A DNA stretch of 64,000 nt, taken from assembly GCF_010731635.1 (NCBI RefSeq), contig NZ_AP022583.1, positions 3,162,001 through 3,226,000 on the forward strand, in the 5' to 3' direction. This DNA comes from Mycobacterium noviomagense. Lineage in GTDB: Bacteria; Actinomycetota; Actinomycetes; Mycobacteriales; Mycobacteriaceae. Both the position numbers and the translations under genes were made by a program. The number at the start of each line of letters is the position of its first letter. The stretch's first letter is position 1. The notes below the pieces were generated by a model. That model saw nothing but the letters and a program-made list of their open reading frames with translations. It ran no database searches and was not told where the DNA came from. Shown here in pieces: positions 1,452 through 31,789 of this stretch.

Positions 1452-1598
1452 CTAGCCGACCCGTCCCCGAGTTGCTAGGCGTTCATCGAGCAATTCGTCG
1501 ACGAGTCGACTAGCCGACTCCATGCCATGCTCGCGAATTGAGCGGCGCACGGCGGCCAGGAGTCGTAGTTCTGAGTCGATGGCTTCTCGATCGCGCAT
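1452..1598 (-). CDS. small protein of the MRDR..ID.EL...DELLDERL family
   Basis: The 48 residues begin MRDREAIDSELRLLAAVRRS and contain VDELLDERL. The same pattern opens the repeat protein at 28615-29442 (MRDRDTIDFELRF...ADELLDERL), and the bases just before both ATG codons are alike (GCTCAG close to ATGCGCGA). It looks like a short helical adaptor module that exists alone here and fused to a membrane protein there. Function unknown. After its TAG stop the same frame stays open for about 26 more codons. Confidence 0.6.
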   Translation of the reverse strand: MRDREAIDSELRLLAAVRRSIREHGMESASRLVDELLDERLATRGRVG

Positions 1599-23577: not shown

Positions 23578-25212
23578 ATGGTGGCTCATCCGCGCGCCGG
23601 CCAGCCGGCCCAGCCCGAAGACCTCGTCGATCTGCCGCATCTGGTGACGGCGTACTACACAAAAGAACCGGACCCAAACGACGTCGCGCAGCAGGTGGTG
23701 TTCGGGACGTCGGGGCACCGGGGGTCTGCGCTGGACGGCGCGTTCAACGAAGCCCACATTCTGGCCATCACCCAGGCCATCGTCGAGTACCGCGCCGCGC
23801 AGGGCACGACCGGGCCGTTGTTCATCGGCCGCGACACGCACGCTCTTTCCGAGCCGGCGTGGGTGTCGGCGCTGGAGGTGCTGGCCGCCAACGACGTGGT
23901 CGCGATGATCGACTCTGCCGACCGCTACACGCCGACTCCGGCGATCAGCCACGCCATCCTCAACTACAACCGCGACCGCGCCGACGGCCTGGGCGACGGG
24001 ATCGTCGTGACACCGTCGCACAATCCGCCGGCCGACGGTGGCTTCAAGTACAACCCGCCCAACGGTGGCCCGGCCGAGAGCGAGGCGACCAACGCAATCG
24101 CCAAGCGCGCCAACGAGATTCTGCGCGACGGGTTGTCGGGGGTGAAGCGGGTGCCGTTGGCCCGTGCACTGCGCAGCGCGTGGCGCCACGACTATCTGGA
24201 CGCCTATGTTGACGACTTGCAAAACGTGGTCGACATCCGCGCGATCCGCGACGCCGGAGTGCGGATCGGCGCCGACCCGCTGGGCGGGGCCAGCGTGGAC
24301 TACTGGGAGGTGATCGCCGACCGGCACGGGCTTGACCTGACGGTGGTCAATCCGCTGGTGGATGCGACGTTTCGGTTCATGACGCTGGACAGTGACGGCA
24401 AGATCCGGATGGATTGCAGTTCGCCCGACGCGATGGCCTCGCTGATCGCCAACCGCGATTCGTACCAGGTCGCCACCGGCAACGACGCCGACGCCGACCG
24501 GCACGGCATCGTCACGCCCGACGCCGGGCTGGTGAACCCCAATCATTATCTGGCGGTGGCCATCGACTACCTCTACACCCATCGGCCGTCCTGGCCGGCC
24601 AGCCTCGCGGTCGGCAAGACCGCGGTCAGCTCGTCGATCATCGACCGGGTCGTTGCCGGGATGGGCCGGGAGCTGCTCGAAGTGCCGGTCGGGTTCAAGT
24701 GGTTCGTCGAACCCCTGCTGACAAGCGCGATCGGTTTCGGCGGCGAGGAGTCGGCGGGGGCGTCGTTTTTGCGCCGTGACGGCTCGGTGTGGACGACTGA
24801 CAAGGACGGCATCATCTTGGCGCTGCTGGCAGCCGAGATGGTGGCGGTCACCGGCGCGACGTCGTCGCAGCGGTACCAAGAGTTGGCGCGCAAATACGGC
24901 GAGCCGACCTATGCGCGCATCAACGCGCCGGCCGACCGGGAGCAGAAGGCTCGGCTGGCCAAGCTCTCGGCCGATCAGGTGACCGCGACCGAGTTGGCCG
25001 GGGAGCCAATCACCGCGAAGCTGACCGCCGCGCCCGGCAATGGCGCGCCATTGGGTGGGCTGAAGGTGACGACGGCCAACGCCTGGTTTGCCGCCAGGCC
25101 CTCGGGCACCGAGGACATCTACAAGATCTACGCCGAGTCCTTCCGCGGGCCGGACCATCTGGCCGAGGTGCAGCAGGCGGCGCAGCAGGTGGTCGACAAA
25201 GTCATCGGCTGA
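23578..25212 (+). CDS. pgmA: phosphoglucomutase
   Basis: PgmA interconverts glucose 1- and 6-phosphate, feeding glycogen, trehalose and cell-wall sugars. The 544-residue protein follows M. tuberculosis Rv3068c: [20 protein letters not shown] at the N-terminus, the phosphoserine loop [13 protein letters not shown], the metal loop [13 protein letters not shown], the sugar-binding [15 protein letters not shown] and the C-terminal phosphate-binding [15 protein letters not shown]. The ATG at 23578 matches the known N-terminus [15 protein letters not shown]. It reads toward the tRNA-Ala gene. Confidence 0.95.
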
Positions 25213-25278
25213 AGTGCCGTGACCAGCGACTTTGAACGCTTGTGGGCTGTGGTGTAGCTTCGATGGGCACGACTGCAC

Positions 25279-25351
25279 GGGGCTATGGCGCAGCTGGTAG
25301 CGCACCACACTGGCAGTGTGGGGGTCACGGGTTCGAGTCCCGTTAGCTCCA
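25279..25351 (+). tRNA. tRNA-Ala, anticodon GGC
   Basis: A complete cloverleaf: acceptor GGGGCTA pairs with TAGCTCC (25344-25350), the D-arm includes GCGCAGCTGGTAGCGC, the anticodon stem CCACA/TGTGG encloses loop CTGGCAG with anticodon GGC at 25312-25314, and the T-arm is ACGGGTTCGAGTCCCGT. The discriminator is A; CCA is not encoded. It lies 66 bp after pgmA. A diverged direct copy of its 3' half, starting exactly at the first anticodon-loop base, lies at 28460-28500. Confidence 0.97.
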
Positions 25352-25402
25352 CCCGAAACCTTGCAGGTTAAAGCGATAAATCGATGTCACGCATCCGTCG
25401 CC

Positions 25403-25567
25403 TCAGCGGCGTCCTTTTTCGCGAGCCGCACTTTTCAGAAAGTCACCGACGGGCTGTTGCTTCCGAAACAGACGGTGCTGACCTGGTTTTAGGGTGAGGA
25501 TCGTCCACTCGCCGTCCTCGCTGAAGTAGGTCGTGCCTGCAACTCCCAGCATCTTGCGCCGTTTCAT
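25403..25567 (-). CDS. small basic protein, 54 residues, in the tRNA-flanked island
   Basis: An ATG-started frame encodes MKRRKMLGVAGTTYFSEDGE then WTILTLKPGQHRLFRKQQPV and a basic end (SAAREKGRR). It is strongly basic with an alternating pattern that suggests a small beta-rich fold. No family is recognised. It is the first ORF after the tRNA-Ala gene, where integrated elements often carry regulatory or excision genes, but it does not resemble known excisionases. The 300 bp between it and the kinase hold no other clear gene. Confidence 0.45.
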   Translation of the reverse strand: MKRRKMLGVAGTTYFSEDGEWTILTLKPGQHRLFRKQQPVGDFLKSAAREKGRR

Positions 25568-25866
25568 GACCGGATCACTTCCGCTTCTGGATGCCGCCCG
25601 TCGTCCCGGTCCTACCAGCCTCAGAGGTAGCAAGCTACTCCTTAAACTACCGGTTCGTGGCTGTCCTTTTTGGTGTAGCCGTTTGGTGGTGCTGTGCACG
25701 CGCCCGCTCGATTTTGCGACGAACGAGCTTCCCGCAGGCGGTAGATGAGCGGCAGCCTCAACAACCACCGAGCAAACCGGCGGATAACCGGTGCCTTTGT
25801 TTTTCCGCGTTGGTCCCGGGCGCGGCTTATGGTGTTGCTCAAACGCATTCCAGGGGGACAGCTCAC

Positions 25867-27608
25867 GTGGAGGGCAGGCCGTTCGGACGTTACCGCCTCG
25901 TAGAGTTGCTGGGTCGGGGCGGTATGGGTGAGGTGTGGCGCGCCTACGACGGCGTCATTGACCGGATCGTCGCGATCAAGATGCTGCTCCCGCATTTCGC
26001 CCAGGACACGACGTTCGAGCACCGTTTCCGCCGCGAAGCCCACACGGCAGCACGTCTGGACCACCCGCACATAGTGCCCATTTATGACGTCGGTGAAATT
26101 GAGGGTCGCCTCTATGTGGCCATGAAGCTGGTCAACGGCGAGGACCTCCAGACACTGCTCAGTGACGGCCCAATAGACCCTGACCGCGCAGTCGGGATCA
26201 CCGAACAGATCGCCTCGGCACTACAAGCCGCTCACAAGGTTGGGCTGGTGCACCGCGACCTCAAGCCGTCCAACATCCTGGTCGCCGAAGATGACTTTGC
26301 CTATCTCATCGATTTCGGCATCGCTCGCGCCGCGGGGGAACTGGAATAACTCCCACCGGGGTGACAATCGGCACTTGGGCTTACATGGCTCCCGAACGAT
26401 TCGGTGCCGGAGAAATAAAACCGAGCTCCGACATTTACGGCCTGGCGTGCGTGCTTTATCAGTCCCTCACCGGTCAACCGCCCTTCCCCGGCGCCACCCC
26501 GGAGCAGGTTGCAATGGCGCACATGACTACCCCACCCCCGAAACCGTCGGCACAGCGTCGCGGCATACCCACAGCAATGGACGACGTGATCGCCGCTGGT
26601 ATGGCCAAAGAACCCGACCGACGCTTCGCCACCGCAAAGGGCCTTGCCGAAGCGGCACGCGCCGCGCTGAGAACCAACCCAGGCGCCGCTTCGGGCGAGC
26701 CAGGCCGCACCGCTGATATCGGCGCGTCGGCGCCTCTCCCGACGGTGCCAGCTGGTCGCCGCTCTCAACCCCGGGCCACTCAACAATTCTCTCAATATTG
26801 GCCTGATCCAGAGGGAACCGGTTACACCCCATATAGAGAGGACGTCGAAGAACTTGAAACGCCCCACCCGAGAAGGGGTTTCGGGGCGGGTCGGATCGTG
26901 CTGACTGCCGCGGCCGCAGCCATGTTCACCGGGGCATTCCTGGGAGCGCTATGGCTCAGTTTCGGCGAAAACTCCGGCGGTAGTCCGAGTGGCAGCCCTG
27001 ATGCCAGTACCAGCCCTGATGCCGGATCAAGCCGGTTGGCCACGCTTCCGACCTCGCCTCACGCGATTAACACCTTGCCCGATACCGACAATCTGGGTTT
27101 CATCGGCTATCCAGGTGCGCGTTGCGATCCTGGAAATGAGCCCGCCGTCATGGCCCGGACGACCCTGTCAGTGCTTGTGGTGTGTCAAATTGGTCCTGGA
27201 AACTTCTACTATCGCGCTGTGCGCGTTAGCGATGGCGCGAGCATCGAACTGGCCAATGCGGTACGTTCATCGGCTGGGTTCGACGTCACGAACCCCGCCG
27301 ACGGCTCGCTCCGAGGGTTCGCGGACGAACTTGGTCGGCGTTTATTCGGTGAATATGCGCGGGAATCGGTGCGATTCAACGGGAATCAACGACAGTCAAA
27401 GATAGTCGAATTGGTTGGCGCACAGCAGATAACGGGCACTATCGCGAATCGTCAACAACAGCCAACAGCGAATCCGTTGGTCACGTGTTCGACGTCTACG
27501 CCGGGTGGCGGATCGCGCTCGACTGCGCGGCGAATCCAAGACGAGACCGAGCGGTCCTCTGCCGCGGCCGCAGCGCGTACCTGCTCCAGGAGCTCGGGTG
27601 GGAAGTGA
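25867..27608 (+). pseudogene. receptor-type Ser/Thr protein kinase, frameshifted in the activation loop
   Basis: The first part, from GTG at 25867, reads MEGRPFGRYRLVELLGRGGM, with HRDLKPSNIL and DFGIARAAGE, then stops at TAA (26349). The second part continues in another frame: TIGTWAYMAPERFG, GLACVLYQSLTGQPPFPGA, then a membrane helix (VLTAAAAAMFTGAFLGALWL) and a sensor-like outer domain with LVVCQIGPGNFYYRAVRVSD. Reading GAAACTGG instead of GAACTGG near 26339 would join them as AGETGITPTGVTIGTWAY, so exactly one A is missing. Either a pseudogene or a sequence error in a G5A2 run. The last 150 bases overlap an antisense gene and are probably not native. Confidence 0.8.
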
Positions 27609-27703
27609 ACGGGCACGGTGGCGGTCAGCCGGCGGCGCCCTGGTCCTTGGGGTTCCTGGTTTTTCGGGCGGGCGTAGAACTCGTATTCGTCGTCGGGAAT
27701 CAT
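27452..27703 (-). CDS. ribbon-helix-helix protein, third gene of the BrnT-BrnA operon
   Basis: The 83-residue protein has an N-terminal arm YEFYARPKNQEPQGPGRRRL and a ribbon-helix-helix segment TATVPVHFPPELLEQVRAAA followed by EDRSVSSWIRRAVERDPPPG, as in CopG/Arc-type antitoxins. The C-terminal tail ends in two cysteines. Its ATG follows the TAA of brnA with no base between, so translation is probably coupled. It could be a second antitoxin, or a separate DNA-binding regulator. It overlaps the 3' end of the kinase pseudogene on the other strand. Confidence 0.7.
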   Translation of the reverse strand: MIPDDEYEFYARPKNQEPQGPGRRRLTATVPVHFPPELLEQVRAAAAAEDRSVSSWIRRAVERDPPPGVDVEHVTNGFAVGCC

Positions 27704-28015
27704 TTAAGAGGCGATTGGTCGGTTGTGTTCCGCAATGAACCGCTCGAGTTCGGCGACGGAAACCACCGCATTGGGCGGTGGGGTTGTCGCTTTCTCGATG
27801 ACCCACTGTCGCATCAGCGTTGTCGAGGGGATGCCCAGGACCGCCGCCTGTTTGCGCACCTTGTCGACCAACGACTGGGGGAGTCGGATCGAGGTGGAGA
27901 CCATCACCTCGTCGGTCGTTCGGGTGTCCAGTTCCGCGCCAGCGAACTCGCTGGCGACGTCGGTGTTGTCGTAGTAGTCGCGGAGTTCGTTCAGCTCGTC
28001 ATGGTTCATGCTCAT
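27704..28015 (-). CDS. brnA: BrnA-type antitoxin (ribbon-helix-helix)
   Basis: The 103-residue protein has an acidic N-terminal region (ELRDYYDNTDVASEFAGAEL) and a ribbon-helix-helix part VMVSTSIRLPQSLVDKVRKQ followed by LGIPSTTLMRQWVIEKA. This layout fits BrnA, which neutralises the BrnT ribonuclease and represses the operon. Its start overlaps the stop of brnT by four bases; toxin first, antitoxin second is the BrnTA order. Confidence 0.82.
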   Translation of the reverse strand: MSMNHDELNELRDYYDNTDVASEFAGAELDTRTTDEVMVSTSIRLPQSLVDKVRKQAAVLGIPSTTLMRQWVIEKATTPPPNAVVSVAELERFIAEHNRPIAS

Positions 28016-28281
28016 TGCCCCTTCTCGCGGAACAGGCGCTTCTCGCTGTCAGTCATGTCGCGCGCGGTGACGACGAAGTCTCGACCGTCAGCGGCCTCAG
28101 CGACGACAACCAACAGGTGCCGTCCTTCGTTGCTGGTGCCCAAGACCAACGTCGTCCCCATGCGTCCTGCGGTGCTCAACCGTGGACGGCCGTAGAGCGC
28201 CTGCTCCACTTCCGAAGGCTGGACACCGTGGCGGGCGATGTGGGCCTCGGAGTCCTCGGTCCACAGCACTTCGCCGAACAC
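28012..28281 (-). CDS. brnT: BrnT-type ribonuclease toxin (DUF497)
   Basis: The 89-residue protein has the DUF497 layout: EDSEAHIARHGVQPSEVEQA (helix with conserved His), a central TTLVLGTSNEGRHLLVVVAE and the C-terminal FVVTARDMTDSEKRLFREKG. BrnT has a RelE-like fold and cleaves RNA. It is the first gene of a three-gene operon with the antitoxin. A promoter must lie within the 330 bp upstream that also contain the tRNA-like repeat. The unit may stabilise the island. Confidence 0.85.
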   Translation of the reverse strand: MFGEVLWTEDSEAHIARHGVQPSEVEQALYGRPRLSTAGRMGTTLVLGTSNEGRHLLVVVAEAADGRDFVVTARDMTDSEKRLFREKGQ

Positions 28282-28459
28282 TGTTCCAGCGTACTACGCG
28301 CGTAGCACGCGGAAAGCGATGTGTGGACCAGCCTAGATTTCAGGAGGTCGCGTAACATCGCTGTCCTGACGACAGTTGTGACGACAGTCGCTCCCTCAAC
28401 TACCACCGCTACAGCACCAAAATGCACCTATCGTGCCTGGTCAGCACCCCTGCCCGCTC

Positions 28460-28500
28460 CTGGCAGTGTGGGGGTCAGGGGTTCGAGCCCCTTAGCTCCA
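28460..28500 (+). repeat. diverged copy of the tRNA-Ala 3' half (att-like direct repeat)
   Basis: CTGGCAGTGTGGGGGTCA is identical to the tRNA-Ala from its anticodon loop; the T-arm then differs at three positions (AGGGGTTCGAGC against ACGGGTTCGAGT), one base is lost, and TTAGCTCCA matches again. It is a direct repeat in the same orientation as 25310-25351, 3.15 kb away. No 5' half is present, so it is not a functional tRNA. The surrounding 28282-28614 holds no other gene I can support. Confidence 0.85.
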
Positions 28501-28614
28501 CAGGAACCCGCAGGTAATGTCCACAGTGACCAGCCGAGCGCACTAACCAACGGTTTGCGATACCACGCCAGTTCGGGCTTCTGCACGGCCTGGGTGTCGT
28601 AATGACCGGGATTA

Positions 28615-29442
28615 CTACTGGCCTGGAACGCCTCGCAGAGCTGGCAGGCCTGGAATGCCCTGCAGACCCGGGATGGCTTGCAGACCGGGGATGTCCTGGA
28701 GACCAGGGATGGCTTGCAGACCCGAGAGAGCATTCTGGATTGTTTGCTGTATCTCGGCCGGGCTGGCAGGTTCGTACTGTTTCGACCCGTCGATGACCGC
28801 CCTGTCGCGGATCCGATACGGCGGAGCGGATGCTTTCGGCGCAACCGGGTTGGATGGCTCGGCAGAGGGCGGGACTACAGCCGGCTGCGCACTGATGTCG
28901 GACGGCTCGGCAGAGGGCGGGACTACCGGCGGCTGCGCAACTGGATTGGACGGCTCGGCAGAGGGCGGGACTACGGTCTGCTGCGCAACCGGGTTGGACG
29001 GCTCGGCCGACGGCGGGAGTACCGTCTGCTGCGCAACCGGGTTGGACGGCTCGGCGGCCGACGGCGGGACTACCGTCTGCTGCGCCGCTGAGTCTGCGTG
29101 GTTGACCGCGAACGGCACCGCCCACACGGCGGCGGTGGCTGCGAGAGACAGTGGCAACGCCGCGAGCGTGCCGAAGCGGCGCAGCACATGCTTACATCCG
29201 TCACGCGTGACGTCGTCGGTCTCGTCGCACTGCGAACAGGTGTCGGCGCTAACCTCAGTCGTACACGCTTCAACTCCCGCGGTTTCGGACGACGCCTCCA
29301 CCATGTCCGCGCGGTGGCCTAGGCGCTCGTCGAGCAACTCGTCGGCCTCTCGGCACGACGGCTGACCGCCCTGCTCACGGACAAATCGACGCGCAAGAGC
29401 GATGAACCGCAGTTCAAAGTCGATCGTGTCGCGGTCGCGCAT
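28615..29442 (-). CDS. membrane protein with MRDR..DELLDERL module and 16-residue repeats
   Basis: The 275-residue protein opens with MRDRDTIDFELRFIALARRF and ADELLDERL, a module shared with the 48-residue protein at 1452-1598. A Cys-containing stretch follows, then one hydrophobic helix (LAALPLSLAATAAVWAVPFA, about residues 95-114). The part after it has five copies of a 16-residue repeat (AQQTVVPPSAEPSNPV and variants) and ends with a leucine/isoleucine-rich GLQAIPGLQDIPGLQAIPGL segment of five-residue periodicity. It is likely anchored with the repeats outside and the module inside. Function unknown. Confidence 0.7.
   Translation of the reverse strand: MRDRDTIDFELRFIALARRFVREQGGQPSCREADELLDERLGHRADMVEASSETAGVEACTTEVSADTCSQCDETDDVTRDGCKHVLRRFGTLAALPLSLAATAAVWAVPFAVNHADSAAQQTVVPPSAAEPSNPVAQQTVLPPSAEPSNPVAQQTVVPPSAEPSNPVAQPPVVPPSAEPSDISAQPAVVPPSAEPSNPVAPKASAPPYRIRDRAVIDGSKQYEPASPAEIQQTIQNALSGLQAIPGLQDIPGLQAIPGLQGIPGLPALRGVPGQ
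28849..29092. repeat. tandem 48-bp coding repeats
   Basis: About five units of 48 bp, each with TTGGACGGCTCGGC and GGCGGGACTACC on the plus strand, encode the 16-residue repeats of the minus-strand membrane protein. The unit next to its 5' side carries an extra triplet. Unit number could vary between strains by slippage. Confidence 0.8.
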
Positions 29443-29511
29443 TCACTGAGCATAGGGCGGTTCGGCAAACTGCGATACCCACTTAACTACGTCAAACGAG
29501 GGCGCGCCCGT

Positions 29512-29820
29512 TTGCCGGATTCTTTGCCGATCCCGAAGTCCGGCGTCGCCCGCGCCCGTGGCAGCGACGAGTTCGACGGAGCGGACCGCCTGGTCCTGGA
29601 GGCGACCGACAAGCTGCTCGCCGACGGGCGAGCCCGGGAGATGACGTGGCTGCGCCTCGTCAAAGAGCTCGGCACTCATCAGGCAACGGACGCGAAACCT
29701 CGGCTTTTCGGCGGCTTTCCATCGTCGAAGAGCTTGTACAACCGATCGGCACGGGCGCGTTCCTTGTCGGAACCGACCATCAAACCAACTCGCATCAGGC
29801 CCTCCACTCCGGGCGCATAA
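29512..29820 (+). CDS. possible remnant of a DNA-binding protein
   Basis: The 102-residue frame contains DGADRLVLEATDKLLADGRA followed by REMTWLRLVKELGTH, which looks like the first helices of a TetR-like or similar helix-turn-helix domain and has coding-like GC-rich third positions. The region after residue 55 is less convincing and may be out of frame. There is no clear ribosome site. It may be a decayed gene; 29443-29511 and 29821-30021 show nothing else supportable. Confidence 0.3.
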   Translation: MPDSLPIPKSGVARARGSDEFDGADRLVLEATDKLLADGRAREMTWLRLVKELGTHQATDAKPRLFGGFPSSKSLYNRSARARSLSEPTIKPTRIRPSTPGA

Positions 29821-30021
29821 CCGTCCCCGTCCTATAAAACGATGGGTAAAGCGGCGCGGCGAAGAGCGGTTCGACGTCGCCAACACCGCTCCAGTCATAA
29901 CGCACCCCAGCCCAAATGTTGAGTACTTGACATCGCCGTGGACGGCGGCGCCGGCCGCGTGCATTCGAGCGATCTGGCGGTCGGCGGCCGCGTCGTGAGC
30001 CTAGGTTTGGTTCTTGTGACG

Positions 30022-31278
30022 ATGGATTCTGATGGTCTTGATGTGCGGCGCAACGCGGGCTGGTTGCCGGCCGAACAGGATGACTTGGAGTCATGGCTGA
30101 CCGGTCACCGGCAGCGGGTAGAGGCGCGGGGCGCAGACGCGAAGCTGCATCCCGTGATCACGGAATTTCAGGAGTTGATCGCCACCGACCCCCTGGTGCG
30201 CATGTACATCGAGCGGATGATCACCGAGGTGCCCCATGGGCGGCAGTACAGCGAGCGTCATCTGCAGAGCGTCGAACAAATGCTGCGCCTGATCAACGAG
30301 GTGCTGACGATGGCGCCGGAATTCGGCGACAGCATGGTGATGACGCCACTCGGCGCGATACTCGACTGGACGATGGGCACCCCCGCGGGGTTCGCGGCCT
30401 ACCGCGATCCGCGGGTCAACGAGATGCTCAAGAAGATCCTCGACGCGTGGTGCGCATTTCTCGATAGCGCCGACTCGCTGTACGTGCTCAACGATTCGCC
30501 GTCGGGCTGGAAATGCGCCGCGGCCCAACAGGCAATCGGCATCGAGCAGTTCCAGTACGACCCGGCCGACGAGCACTGGGGCTTCGCCTCGTGGAACGAC
30601 TTCTTCACCCGGCGCTTCAAGGAGGGCCAGCGTCCGGTCGCCTCGCCGGACGACGACAAGGTGGTCGTCAGCGCTTGTGAGTCCACTCCCTACCGCATCG
30701 CTATGGGCGTCAAACAACAGGATCGCTTCTGGATCAAAAGCCAGCCGTATTCGCTGCGGGACATGCTCGGCAACGACGAGTCCGTTGAGCAGTTCACCGG
30801 CGGCACCGTATACCAGGCGTTTCTGAGCGCGACCGACTATCACCGTTGGCACAGTCCGGTCGGCGGGACAGTCGTGCGGGCGTTCAACCTGCCGGGAACG
30901 TACTTCTCCGAGGCCGATACCGAAGGCAAAGAAGCGGTCAATCCGCCGGTCTCCCAAGCCTATCTGGCGCATGTCGCCGCACGCGCGATCATCCTGATCG
31001 AAGATGACGATCCGGTCATCGGGCTCATGGCGTTCGTCGGGATCGGTATGTCGGACGTTTCGTCGTGCATCATCGATGACCACGTCGCGCCGGGTCACCA
31101 CCTGGCCAAAGGTGACGAACTCGGTTACTTCCAATACGGCGGTTCGACGTACTGCCTCGTCTTTCGCCCCGGCGCCATTGCCGACTTCGCCGTCGCGGCC
31201 CTTCCCCAACCGAACAATCCCAATGCGCCGCTGGTGCATGTCCGCTCGAAGCTCGCCATCGCCAACACCACGACATGA
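30022..31278 (+). CDS. phosphatidylserine decarboxylase family protein, PsiD-like
   Basis: The 418-residue protein has an N-terminal region of about 170 residues (QELIATDPLVRMYIERMITE, FGDSMVMTPLGAILDWTMGT) that is found in PsiD-type decarboxylases, then the phosphatidylserine-decarboxylase core with WNDFFTRRFKEGQRPVASPD, SATDYHRWHSPVGGTVVRAF and EIGYFQ-like KGDELGYFQYGGSTYCLVF. Self-cleavage for the pyruvoyl group would occur at the GGST serine. Such relatives decarboxylate amino acids such as tryptophan instead of phospholipid. Start at ATG 30022, or GTG 30016. No second lipid gene is adjacent, which favours a soluble amino-acid decarboxylase. Confidence 0.82.
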   Translation: MDSDGLDVRRNAGWLPAEQDDLESWLTGHRQRVEARGADAKLHPVITEFQELIATDPLVRMYIERMITEVPHGRQYSERHLQSVEQMLRLINEVLTMAPEFGDSMVMTPLGAILDWTMGTPAGFAAYRDPRVNEMLKKILDAWCAFLDSADSLYVLNDSPSGWKCAAAQQAIGIEQFQYDPADEHWGFASWNDFFTRRFKEGQRPVASPDDDKVVVSACESTPYRIAMGVKQQDRFWIKSQPYSLRDMLGNDESVEQFTGGTVYQAFLSATDYHRWHSPVGGTVVRAFNLPGTYFSEADTEGKEAVNPPVSQAYLAHVAARAIILIEDDDPVIGLMAFVGIGMSDVSSCIIDDHVAPGHHLAKGDELGYFQYGGSTYCLVFRPGAIADFAVAALPQPNNPNAPLVHVRSKLAIANTTT

Positions 31279-31357
31279 AGCGCAACGCTTCCGGATCATC
31301 GAAGCCGCTAGGCTTGGTGCTTGACGGCCTTCGCCGCCCCCGCACCTACCAGGAGCC

Positions 31358-31789
31358 ATCACGTCAAGCACCCGACCCAACGCCCGGCAGTACATCGCAT
31401 ACGCGTACACGCACCGACGCCTTCCCGATTCGATGCGCGAGTGGGTCGCTCACGATCTAGCCGGTAAAGGAGCGGTCCGCCGGTTCATGGTCCGCGCAGC
31501 GATACCGCCGTTTGTGGTTCTCGCCCCGTTTTGGCTGCTGCCCGCCCAGAACGCGCTCTATGTGCACTTGGAGATGACGGTGCCGATTTATGTCTGGGCA
31601 CTGCTGGTTTCGCTTGCGCTGAACAAGGTGTGGCGCCGCCACCGGCTGGCGCAGCACGGCCTGGACCCGAATCTGGTGGATGCGATCAGACGCCAGAAAG
31701 ACGCAAAGATGCACGAGGACTACATCCAGCGCTACGGGCCGCGCCCACAGGAGGCCGAGTGGCAGGCGAACAGCAACCCGTTCTTCTAG
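31358..31789 (+). CDS. DUF5313 membrane protein with an apparent ATC start
   Basis: The protein has two hydrophobic segments (FVVLAPFWLLP and MTVPIYVWALLVSLALNKVW) and the soluble tail RRHRLAQHGLDPNLVDAIRR, as in mycobacterial DUF5313 proteins. Family members begin about 25 residues before the first ATG (31433), and that region is conserved here (RPNARQYIAYAYTHRRLPDS), but between the in-frame stop at 31322 and 31433 there is no ATG, GTG or TTG. The ATC at 31358, two bases after AGGAGCC, stands where homologues start. It may be a rare start codon or a damaged gene. Confidence 0.7.
   Translation: MTSSTRPNARQYIAYAYTHRRLPDSMREWVAHDLAGKGAVRRFMVRAAIPPFVVLAPFWLLPAQNALYVHLEMTVPIYVWALLVSLALNKVWRRHRLAQHGLDPNLVDAIRRQKDAKMHEDYIQRYGPRPQEAEWQANSNPFF

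Follow-up and report, generated by a model that had tools for sequence, protein, structure and literature searches.

How does the 3' half of a tRNA gene come to lie a second time some 3 kb downstream of the gene itself, with no integrase gene between the two copies? The locus that raises this question is part of a 64,000-nucleotide stretch of the Mycobacterium noviomagense chromosome (NCBI RefSeq assembly GCF_010731635.1, contig NZ_AP022583.1, positions 3,162,001 to 3,226,000; hereafter the window, in whose coordinates positions are given), in which a tRNA-Ala(GGC) gene identified by ARAGORN at 25279..25353 (+) is followed by an islet bounded by the repeated half. An earlier note, made from the letters of the window alone, took this interval for an integrated element. 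On comparing it with other genomes (here numbered G, with G000 for the own genome, and their loci L), we consider it very probable that 25354-28501 is the remnant of a pSAM2-like actinomycete integrative and conjugative element (AICE) at tRNA-Ala(GGC), whose integrase is gone and whose right end is retained. The view of the interval as an integrated element is supported by the types of the two tRNA halves, by arm-type repeats common to AICE-bearing genomes, and by a parallel islet in G023.

The repeat itself is unambiguous. Positions 25310-25352, which begin at base 32 in the anticodon loop and extend to the 3' end of the tRNA (the core of the left attachment site, attL), recur directly at 28460-28501 (+; the attR core), with a copy spacing of 3,150 bp, which confirms the repeat 3.15 kb downstream described in the earlier note. 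The far copy is identical to the neighbouring tRNA in 40 of 43 alignment columns and differs by two substitutions, compensatory and located in the T-stem, and by one base missing from the T-loop. A 32-base core pattern, allowing up to three mismatches, matched only twice in the one-contig genome of 4,779,798 bp, both times at the islet, so that the repeat is far beyond chance. The genome probably has no tRNA-Ala(GGC) of this sequence other than the intact gene.

The two copies, however, are not of the same type. The T-stem of the intact tRNA carries the pair C50-G64 and that of the far copy G50-C64, and the far copy agrees with the G-type tRNA of M. lacus (G029) in 42 of 43 columns (97.7%). 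Of the pgmA-linked loci L001-L019, all but L011 and L017 yielded a tRNA match, and each of these 17 tRNAs has the pair G50-C64. The C-type 3' half, when searched for directly, was present in only five of 396 congeneric genomes, i.e., G000, G319, G185, G250 and G040, and beyond the genus it appeared in two Corynebacterium loci (L050 and L078). Since the far copy is closer to the G-type tRNA than to its own neighbour, and since the C-type is rare, it is the far copy that represents the genus-typical half, while the intact gene carries the unusual half from 25310 onwards. The far repeat had been described as a diverged copy of the tRNA, a description that these comparisons reverse. Integration in the anticodon loop predicts that the element supplies a new 3' half and displaces the old one to its far end, and the types of the two halves fit this prediction. 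Partial tRNA copies can arise in other ways, and if part of the tRNA had simply been duplicated, without site-specific recombination, a second copy would also be present; such an origin is hardly credible, because the copy starts at anticodon-loop base 32 as the tabulated element ends do, has repeats at an equal distance, and resembles the G-type tRNA more closely than the tRNA beside it.

Other elements at this tRNA provide parallels for such a replacement. In the tabulated loci, whose rows take in overlapping loci of single genomes as well as some other genera, a 5' CTGG is paired with a 3' GAG in 42 rows and TTGG with GAA in 29 rows, and 13 more rows are C-type. Three rows (L134 of G004, L130 of G156, and L030 of Millisia) show the mosaic combination of CTGG and GAA on a G-type stem, and all three loci contain an integrase match. 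In G004, where an AICE-type integrase is present, the tRNA has this mosaic form while attR retains GAG, and in G156 the far copy likewise retains GAG. The mosaics in G004 and G156 indicate that elements at tRNA-Ala(GGC) replace the 3' half of the tRNA. They also bear on whether an element carried the C50-G64 pair at all, or whether the tRNA acquired it after an ordinary integration through two mutations that compensate each other. G319 and G185, which have the C-type tRNA and now show no element, are consistent with such mutations; yet G040 combines the same change, in a tRNA beside an integrase, with a G-type half that lies on a different contig behind the end of another element. Together with the mosaics, this makes mutation in place an unlikely source of the pair.

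Next to the core we recognise a second mark of integration, the putative right arm (P' arm) of the element at 28363..28459 (+), delimited by its similarity to the same position in other genomes. It contains two copies of the repeat TGACGACA, at 28367..28374 (+) and 28379..28386 (+), in which GACGACA begins 92 and 80 bases before the core, respectively, the former being the middle of three sites in relatives. The repeat pair TGACGACANNNNTGACGACA has a single perfect match in the own 4.78-Mb genome, in the islet, and one more elsewhere with one mismatch. A combined arm and core pattern (GACGACA-N60-90-core) was found in 43 of the 396 congeneric genomes, the own included, and no match of the reversed control was among the matches listed. 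Across 31 ends from the 30 loci returned, the sites lie at, or a few bases off, -104, -92 and -80 relative to the core; three perfect sites are present in 17 ends and two in 14, and the window retains those at -92 and -80. A C precedes the core in 29 of these 31 ends, and position 50 is G in all 31. Far ends were compared in 14 chosen genomes with at least two cores, and they fell into two kinds, seven with the flank gcccgntc directly before CTGG (G321, G150, G096, G377, G004, G218 and G009) and seven with tcaca in that place (G156, G080, G049, G214, G367, G167 and G145). At L005, L129 and L134 the repeat pair is additionally present at the left end, 115 and 127 bp after the start of the tRNA. 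In G218 (L136), four tRNA-Ala cores stand in succession, one of them in the tRNA itself; the other three each have three arm repeats, and AAA_14-DUF4143 genes occupy two of the att-bounded segments.

The kind of element to which such an arm belongs is suggested by G150, where an integrase (PF00589 and PF14659), an HTH_17 excisionase-like gene, RepSA (PF20199, E = 4.6e-133; the match to the NCBIfam RepSA model is below its cut-off) and an FtsK/SpoIIIE gene lie about 3 kb behind the tRNA, a gene set (Int-Xis-RepSA-FtsK) that follows the plan of a pSAM2-like AICE. G004 and L005 encode the same integrase, without a difference over 422 residues, and the right ends of G150 and G004 each have three repeats. 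None of these genes is left in the islet. Three integrase queries against 25201-28700 gave nothing significant (best E = 0.30), in agreement with the absence of an integrase reported in the earlier note; six islet open reading frames (ORFs) scanned with Pfam included no RepSA-type replication or FtsK-like transfer gene, and the own genome contains no close relative of the AICE integrase (best 35% identity). A second integrase family, relatives of L133:3263-4099, is found at tRNA-Ala(GGC) in other mycobacteria (L130, L131, L135, L137, L141 and L151).

A prophage or another non-conjugative integrative element, equipped with an AICE-like integrase and arm sites, might also have left the right end, in which case the relic would not be that of an AICE. 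Use of tRNA-Ala(GGC) by the second integrase family points in this direction, as does the cargo of L014, L128, L136 and L139, among whose selected ORFs no AICE gene was detected and where no integrase matched. The arm, however, occurs together with the AICE-type integrase in G150 and G004, and the phage searches gave little: the exact arm and core pattern matched none of the viral contigs, and the islet matched one of 50,697 phage records, over a 106-base stretch of its kinase gene. A viral origin was rejected on these grounds, and a source other than an AICE appears quite unlikely. Plasmids were searched as well. Pieces of the islet matched 30 plasmid records, none covering 80%, and a plasmid origin of the whole islet was thus rejected; two plasmid matches that resembled attP were also discarded, being adjacent to pgm and to a core of the tRNA-Ala type on records that are large or look like chromosomes.

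Several observations weigh against a decayed AICE-type element and have to be set beside this evidence. In G377 (L133), the right arm is of this type but the integrase belongs to the second family, so that the two do not go strictly together, and seven loci with similar ends (L008, L013, L014, L128, L132, L136 and L139) have no integrase match in the fetched stretches. A recognisable repeat pair was not found at the left end of the window's islet, and it is absent beside the far core of L132 (G096). The role of the arm repeats as integrase binding sites is a predicted one. Finally, G319 and G185, the closest relatives fetched (87-88% identity in the pgmA region), have the C-type tRNA without the islet or its attR, and carry other DNA from the tRNA to window positions 31643-31751, where synteny resumes. 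The C-type tRNA that they share with M. noviomagense implies that the integration, or the T-stem change, predates the split of these genomes, and the remainder would be explained by loss. Neither G319 and G185 nor G250 and M. lacus showed an exact empty site with a clean junction, the comparison favoured in the earlier note. The refuting pattern named there, synteny of the islet genes in most mycobacteria with a repeat absent or older than the genus, was not found either, as BrnT (described below) occurs in three of 198 congeneric genomes, the own included, and the arm and core pattern has the limited distribution given above.

Between the arm and the kinase gene lies what appears to be a toxin-antitoxin (TA) slot with a layered history. 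On the minus strand, a BrnT-like toxin gene (28012..28281; PF04365, E = 1.9e-6) is followed with a 4-base overlap by a gene for a BrnA-like CopG antitoxin (27704..28015; PF12441, E = 1.7e-5), and then by a gene for an orphan ribbon-helix-helix (RHH) protein, YlcI/YnfO-like and altered at its start and C-terminus (27452..27703; NF041551, above cut-off). The BrnTA pair scores below the curated cut-offs (PF04365, 28.5 of 34.5 bits; PF12441, 25.9 of 28; NF047399, 21.9 of 60), no credible relative of BrnT was found among solved structures (best E = 0.03), and relatives of the BrnA-like protein occur in M. haemophilum, M. lacus and M. celatum. The earlier note had described a BrnTA-type operon with an extra RHH gene; the gene order and overlap stand, with the scores qualified as above, while the supposedly extra gene proves to be an orphan, presumably the antitoxin, from another module.

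This other module consists of two genes, encoding a 113-residue protein and then an RHH protein, and in G073 and G239 it adjoins the same arm and attR. The RHH protein of the window is 87.5% identical over 64 residues to that of the module in these two genomes, and its DNA is 86-92% identical to that of module RHH genes which five genomes carry at this tRNA site (92% to G073). Besides the window, five genomes (G073, G239, G023, G318 and G075) have the module no more than about 2 kb away from a tRNA-Ala core. The whole islet of G023 measures 1.54 kb and comprises the tRNA, the RHH gene, the partner gene in two fragments, the arm, and an attR with two mismatches. Relatives of the RHH protein were detected in 29 of the 396 genomes at E <= 0.001 (the own included, and several of them weak), and of the 20 loci returned around such relatives, 17 have the partner gene, in some cases only as fragments, the exceptions being the window (L203), L214 at a contig end, and L216. 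In the other 14 of these 20 loci no tRNA-Ala core was seen within the locus, and that of G075 became visible only in a larger stretch. The same two-gene pair is encoded on the Hoyosella plasmid pAS9A-2, which is also the best plasmid match of the RHH gene (81%). The pair is presumably a TA module, as judged by gene size, gene order, overlap and the presence of an RHH domain; the 113-residue partner matches nothing in Pfam or NCBIfam. In G073 this candidate TA system, with its YlcI/YnfO-like RHH protein, is located at L190:2951-3507.

Similarity between the window and the module loci ends at 27703, the end of BrnA, in four of five comparisons (at 27697 in G239) and resumes at 28363-28367. These cassette junctions indicate that BrnTA took the place of the partner gene and of the opening codons of the RHH gene, which now starts directly behind the BrnA stop. 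Two integrations rather than one are also conceivable. In M. lacus, a G-type tRNA-Ala is directly followed by BrnA and by a BrnT whose N-terminus does not match, and their DNA is 82% identical to that of G000, the same value as for the neighbouring core DNA of the pgmA region. An older element could accordingly have brought BrnTA together with the right end, and a later one, now lost, could have put the C-type half into the ancestor of G000, G319 and G185. Such a sequence is of the same kind as the single integration that we favour and compatible with it, differing in the order of events. We regard it as possible, if somewhat doubtful: the RHH similarity abutting BrnTA suggests that BrnTA entered a slot in which the two-gene module was already in place, and a second attR is absent from the core search of the genome.

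Taken in order, the history of a decayed AICE-type element would run as follows. Acting at the anticodon loop of tRNA-Ala(GGC), a tyrosine integrase would have given the host tRNA a new 3' half by recombination, while the old half would have been displaced to the far end, where it persists as the putative attR behind the right arm. Later deletions would have removed the left arm and the genes for integrase, excisionase, replication and transfer. The slot beside attR would have held the two-gene toxin-RHH module first and would then have been overwritten by BrnTA, leaving the RHH gene as the third gene of the BrnTA operon and a broken kinase gene in the remaining interval. We infer that the ancestral element was an AICE, that events followed this order, and that the TA pair may have slowed the loss of the remnant.

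The remaining content of the islet is a small ORF and the kinase gene, both of which had already been noticed and are confirmed here. The ORF (25403..25567, -) encodes 54 residues from an inner start of a longer listed ORF and has no credible family match (best Pfam E = 0.19). The gene of an StpK7/PknB-like Ser/Thr kinase looks like a pseudogene: an N-terminal piece (25867..26349, +; PF00069, E = 2.9e-32) ends with a stop at 26347-26349, and a C-terminal piece follows in another frame (26361..27608, +; PF00069, E = 2.1e-9). The N-terminal piece also matches NF052427 (E = 1.1e-69), under the whole-protein cut-off of that model. The best kinase paralogue in the own genome (51%) matches residues 2-316 of 415, with similarity ceasing near 27309, and the tail of the kinase open frame overlaps the RHH gene in antisense, the RHH DNA similarity beginning at 27470-27497. 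The best plasmid DNA match of the kinase is a kinase gene on an M. gordonae plasmid (71% over 744 bases).

Beyond attR, most of 28502-31750 is itself not common to G319 and G185, and this stretch is possibly a second, older variable segment. Absent from both relatives are a gene at 28618-29442 (-), an ORF at 29446-29964 and a phosphatidylserine-decarboxylase-like gene at 29938-31275. The first of these has no Pfam match, and its relatives are labelled DUF732. A weakly related gene (52% over 91 residues) lies behind the tRNA-Ala in G250 (L152), and a DUF732-annotated gene stands beside an integrase behind a tRNA-Ala core on Rhodococcus erythropolis KB1 plas2 (L200, 6082-7676). The N-terminus of the protein encoded at 28618-29442 has a counterpart of 44 residues and 57% identity at window positions 1467-1598, about 1 kb from the tmRNA gene.

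How does the islet compare with elements already described? With AICEs of the pSAM2 type it shares insertion at a tRNA 3' end and a plan of right arm and core like that of G150 and G004, and it differs in retaining none of the AICE genes, i.e., integrase, excisionase, RepSA and FtsK. According to a 2011 survey, all but one of the Mycobacterium AICEs encode serine recombinases, and a tRNA-Leu group is described; the passages available from it include no tRNA-Ala group (PMC3218068). No AICE or islet at a mycobacterial tRNA-Ala(GGC) was found among the literature matches listed, in which subscription papers are mostly not covered, and in the accessible text of one article tRNA-Ala is named only in a gene table (PMC6456199). 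Closer in structure are cis-mobilizable elements (CIMEs), defined as keeping attL and attR while having lost the genes for integration and transfer (PMC5704250). The islet likewise has both cores and the right arm and lacks such genes; its left arm, however, is unrecognisable and its attR core is one base short, which makes its mobility doubtful. A regenerated tRNA and a displaced fragment, which mark island ends in the Islander approach (PMC4383910), are present here as well, the difference being that the islet has no integrase gene. As in BrnTA type II systems, the toxin-like gene comes first and overlaps that of a CopG/RHH antitoxin in a two-gene operon, but here the pair scores below the curated cut-offs and is followed by a third, orphan RHH gene of another module. 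The toxin of such systems is a ribonuclease that BrnA neutralises, activities that are putative for the pair in the islet. A HipAB module has been reported to stabilise the Shewanella composite island CGI48 in tRNA-Trp (PMC8978831). By comparison, TA genes make up a large share of what is left in the islet, where a stabilising effect would be a putative one.

Overall, the islet is a well-marked case of an already known type of genomic fossil, CIME-like by structure and with a swapped TA cassette. It illustrates that an integrated element can be recognised after the loss of its integrase. The marks are orphan arm-type repeats, which keep a constant spacing to the displaced half of a tRNA, and an intact tRNA with halves of apparently different origin. 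Element ends of the family to which it belongs are present at tRNA-Ala(GGC) in 43 of 396 congeneric genomes, or about one in nine. A wider proposal, which we put forward as doubtful, is that the mycobacterial tRNA-Ala(GGC) collects addiction relics: decaying AICE-type elements would leave a TA slot, arm sites and attR, TA cassettes would be swapped there, and the relics might still be movable by a related integrase. If true, att-bounded arrays of TA or single genes, such as that with four cores in G218, would represent a slowly cassette-collecting site at which the 3' half of an essential tRNA gene is repeatedly rewritten. For M. noviomagense, our results suggest that what is apparently the host's only tRNA-Ala of its sequence runs on an element-type 3' half.

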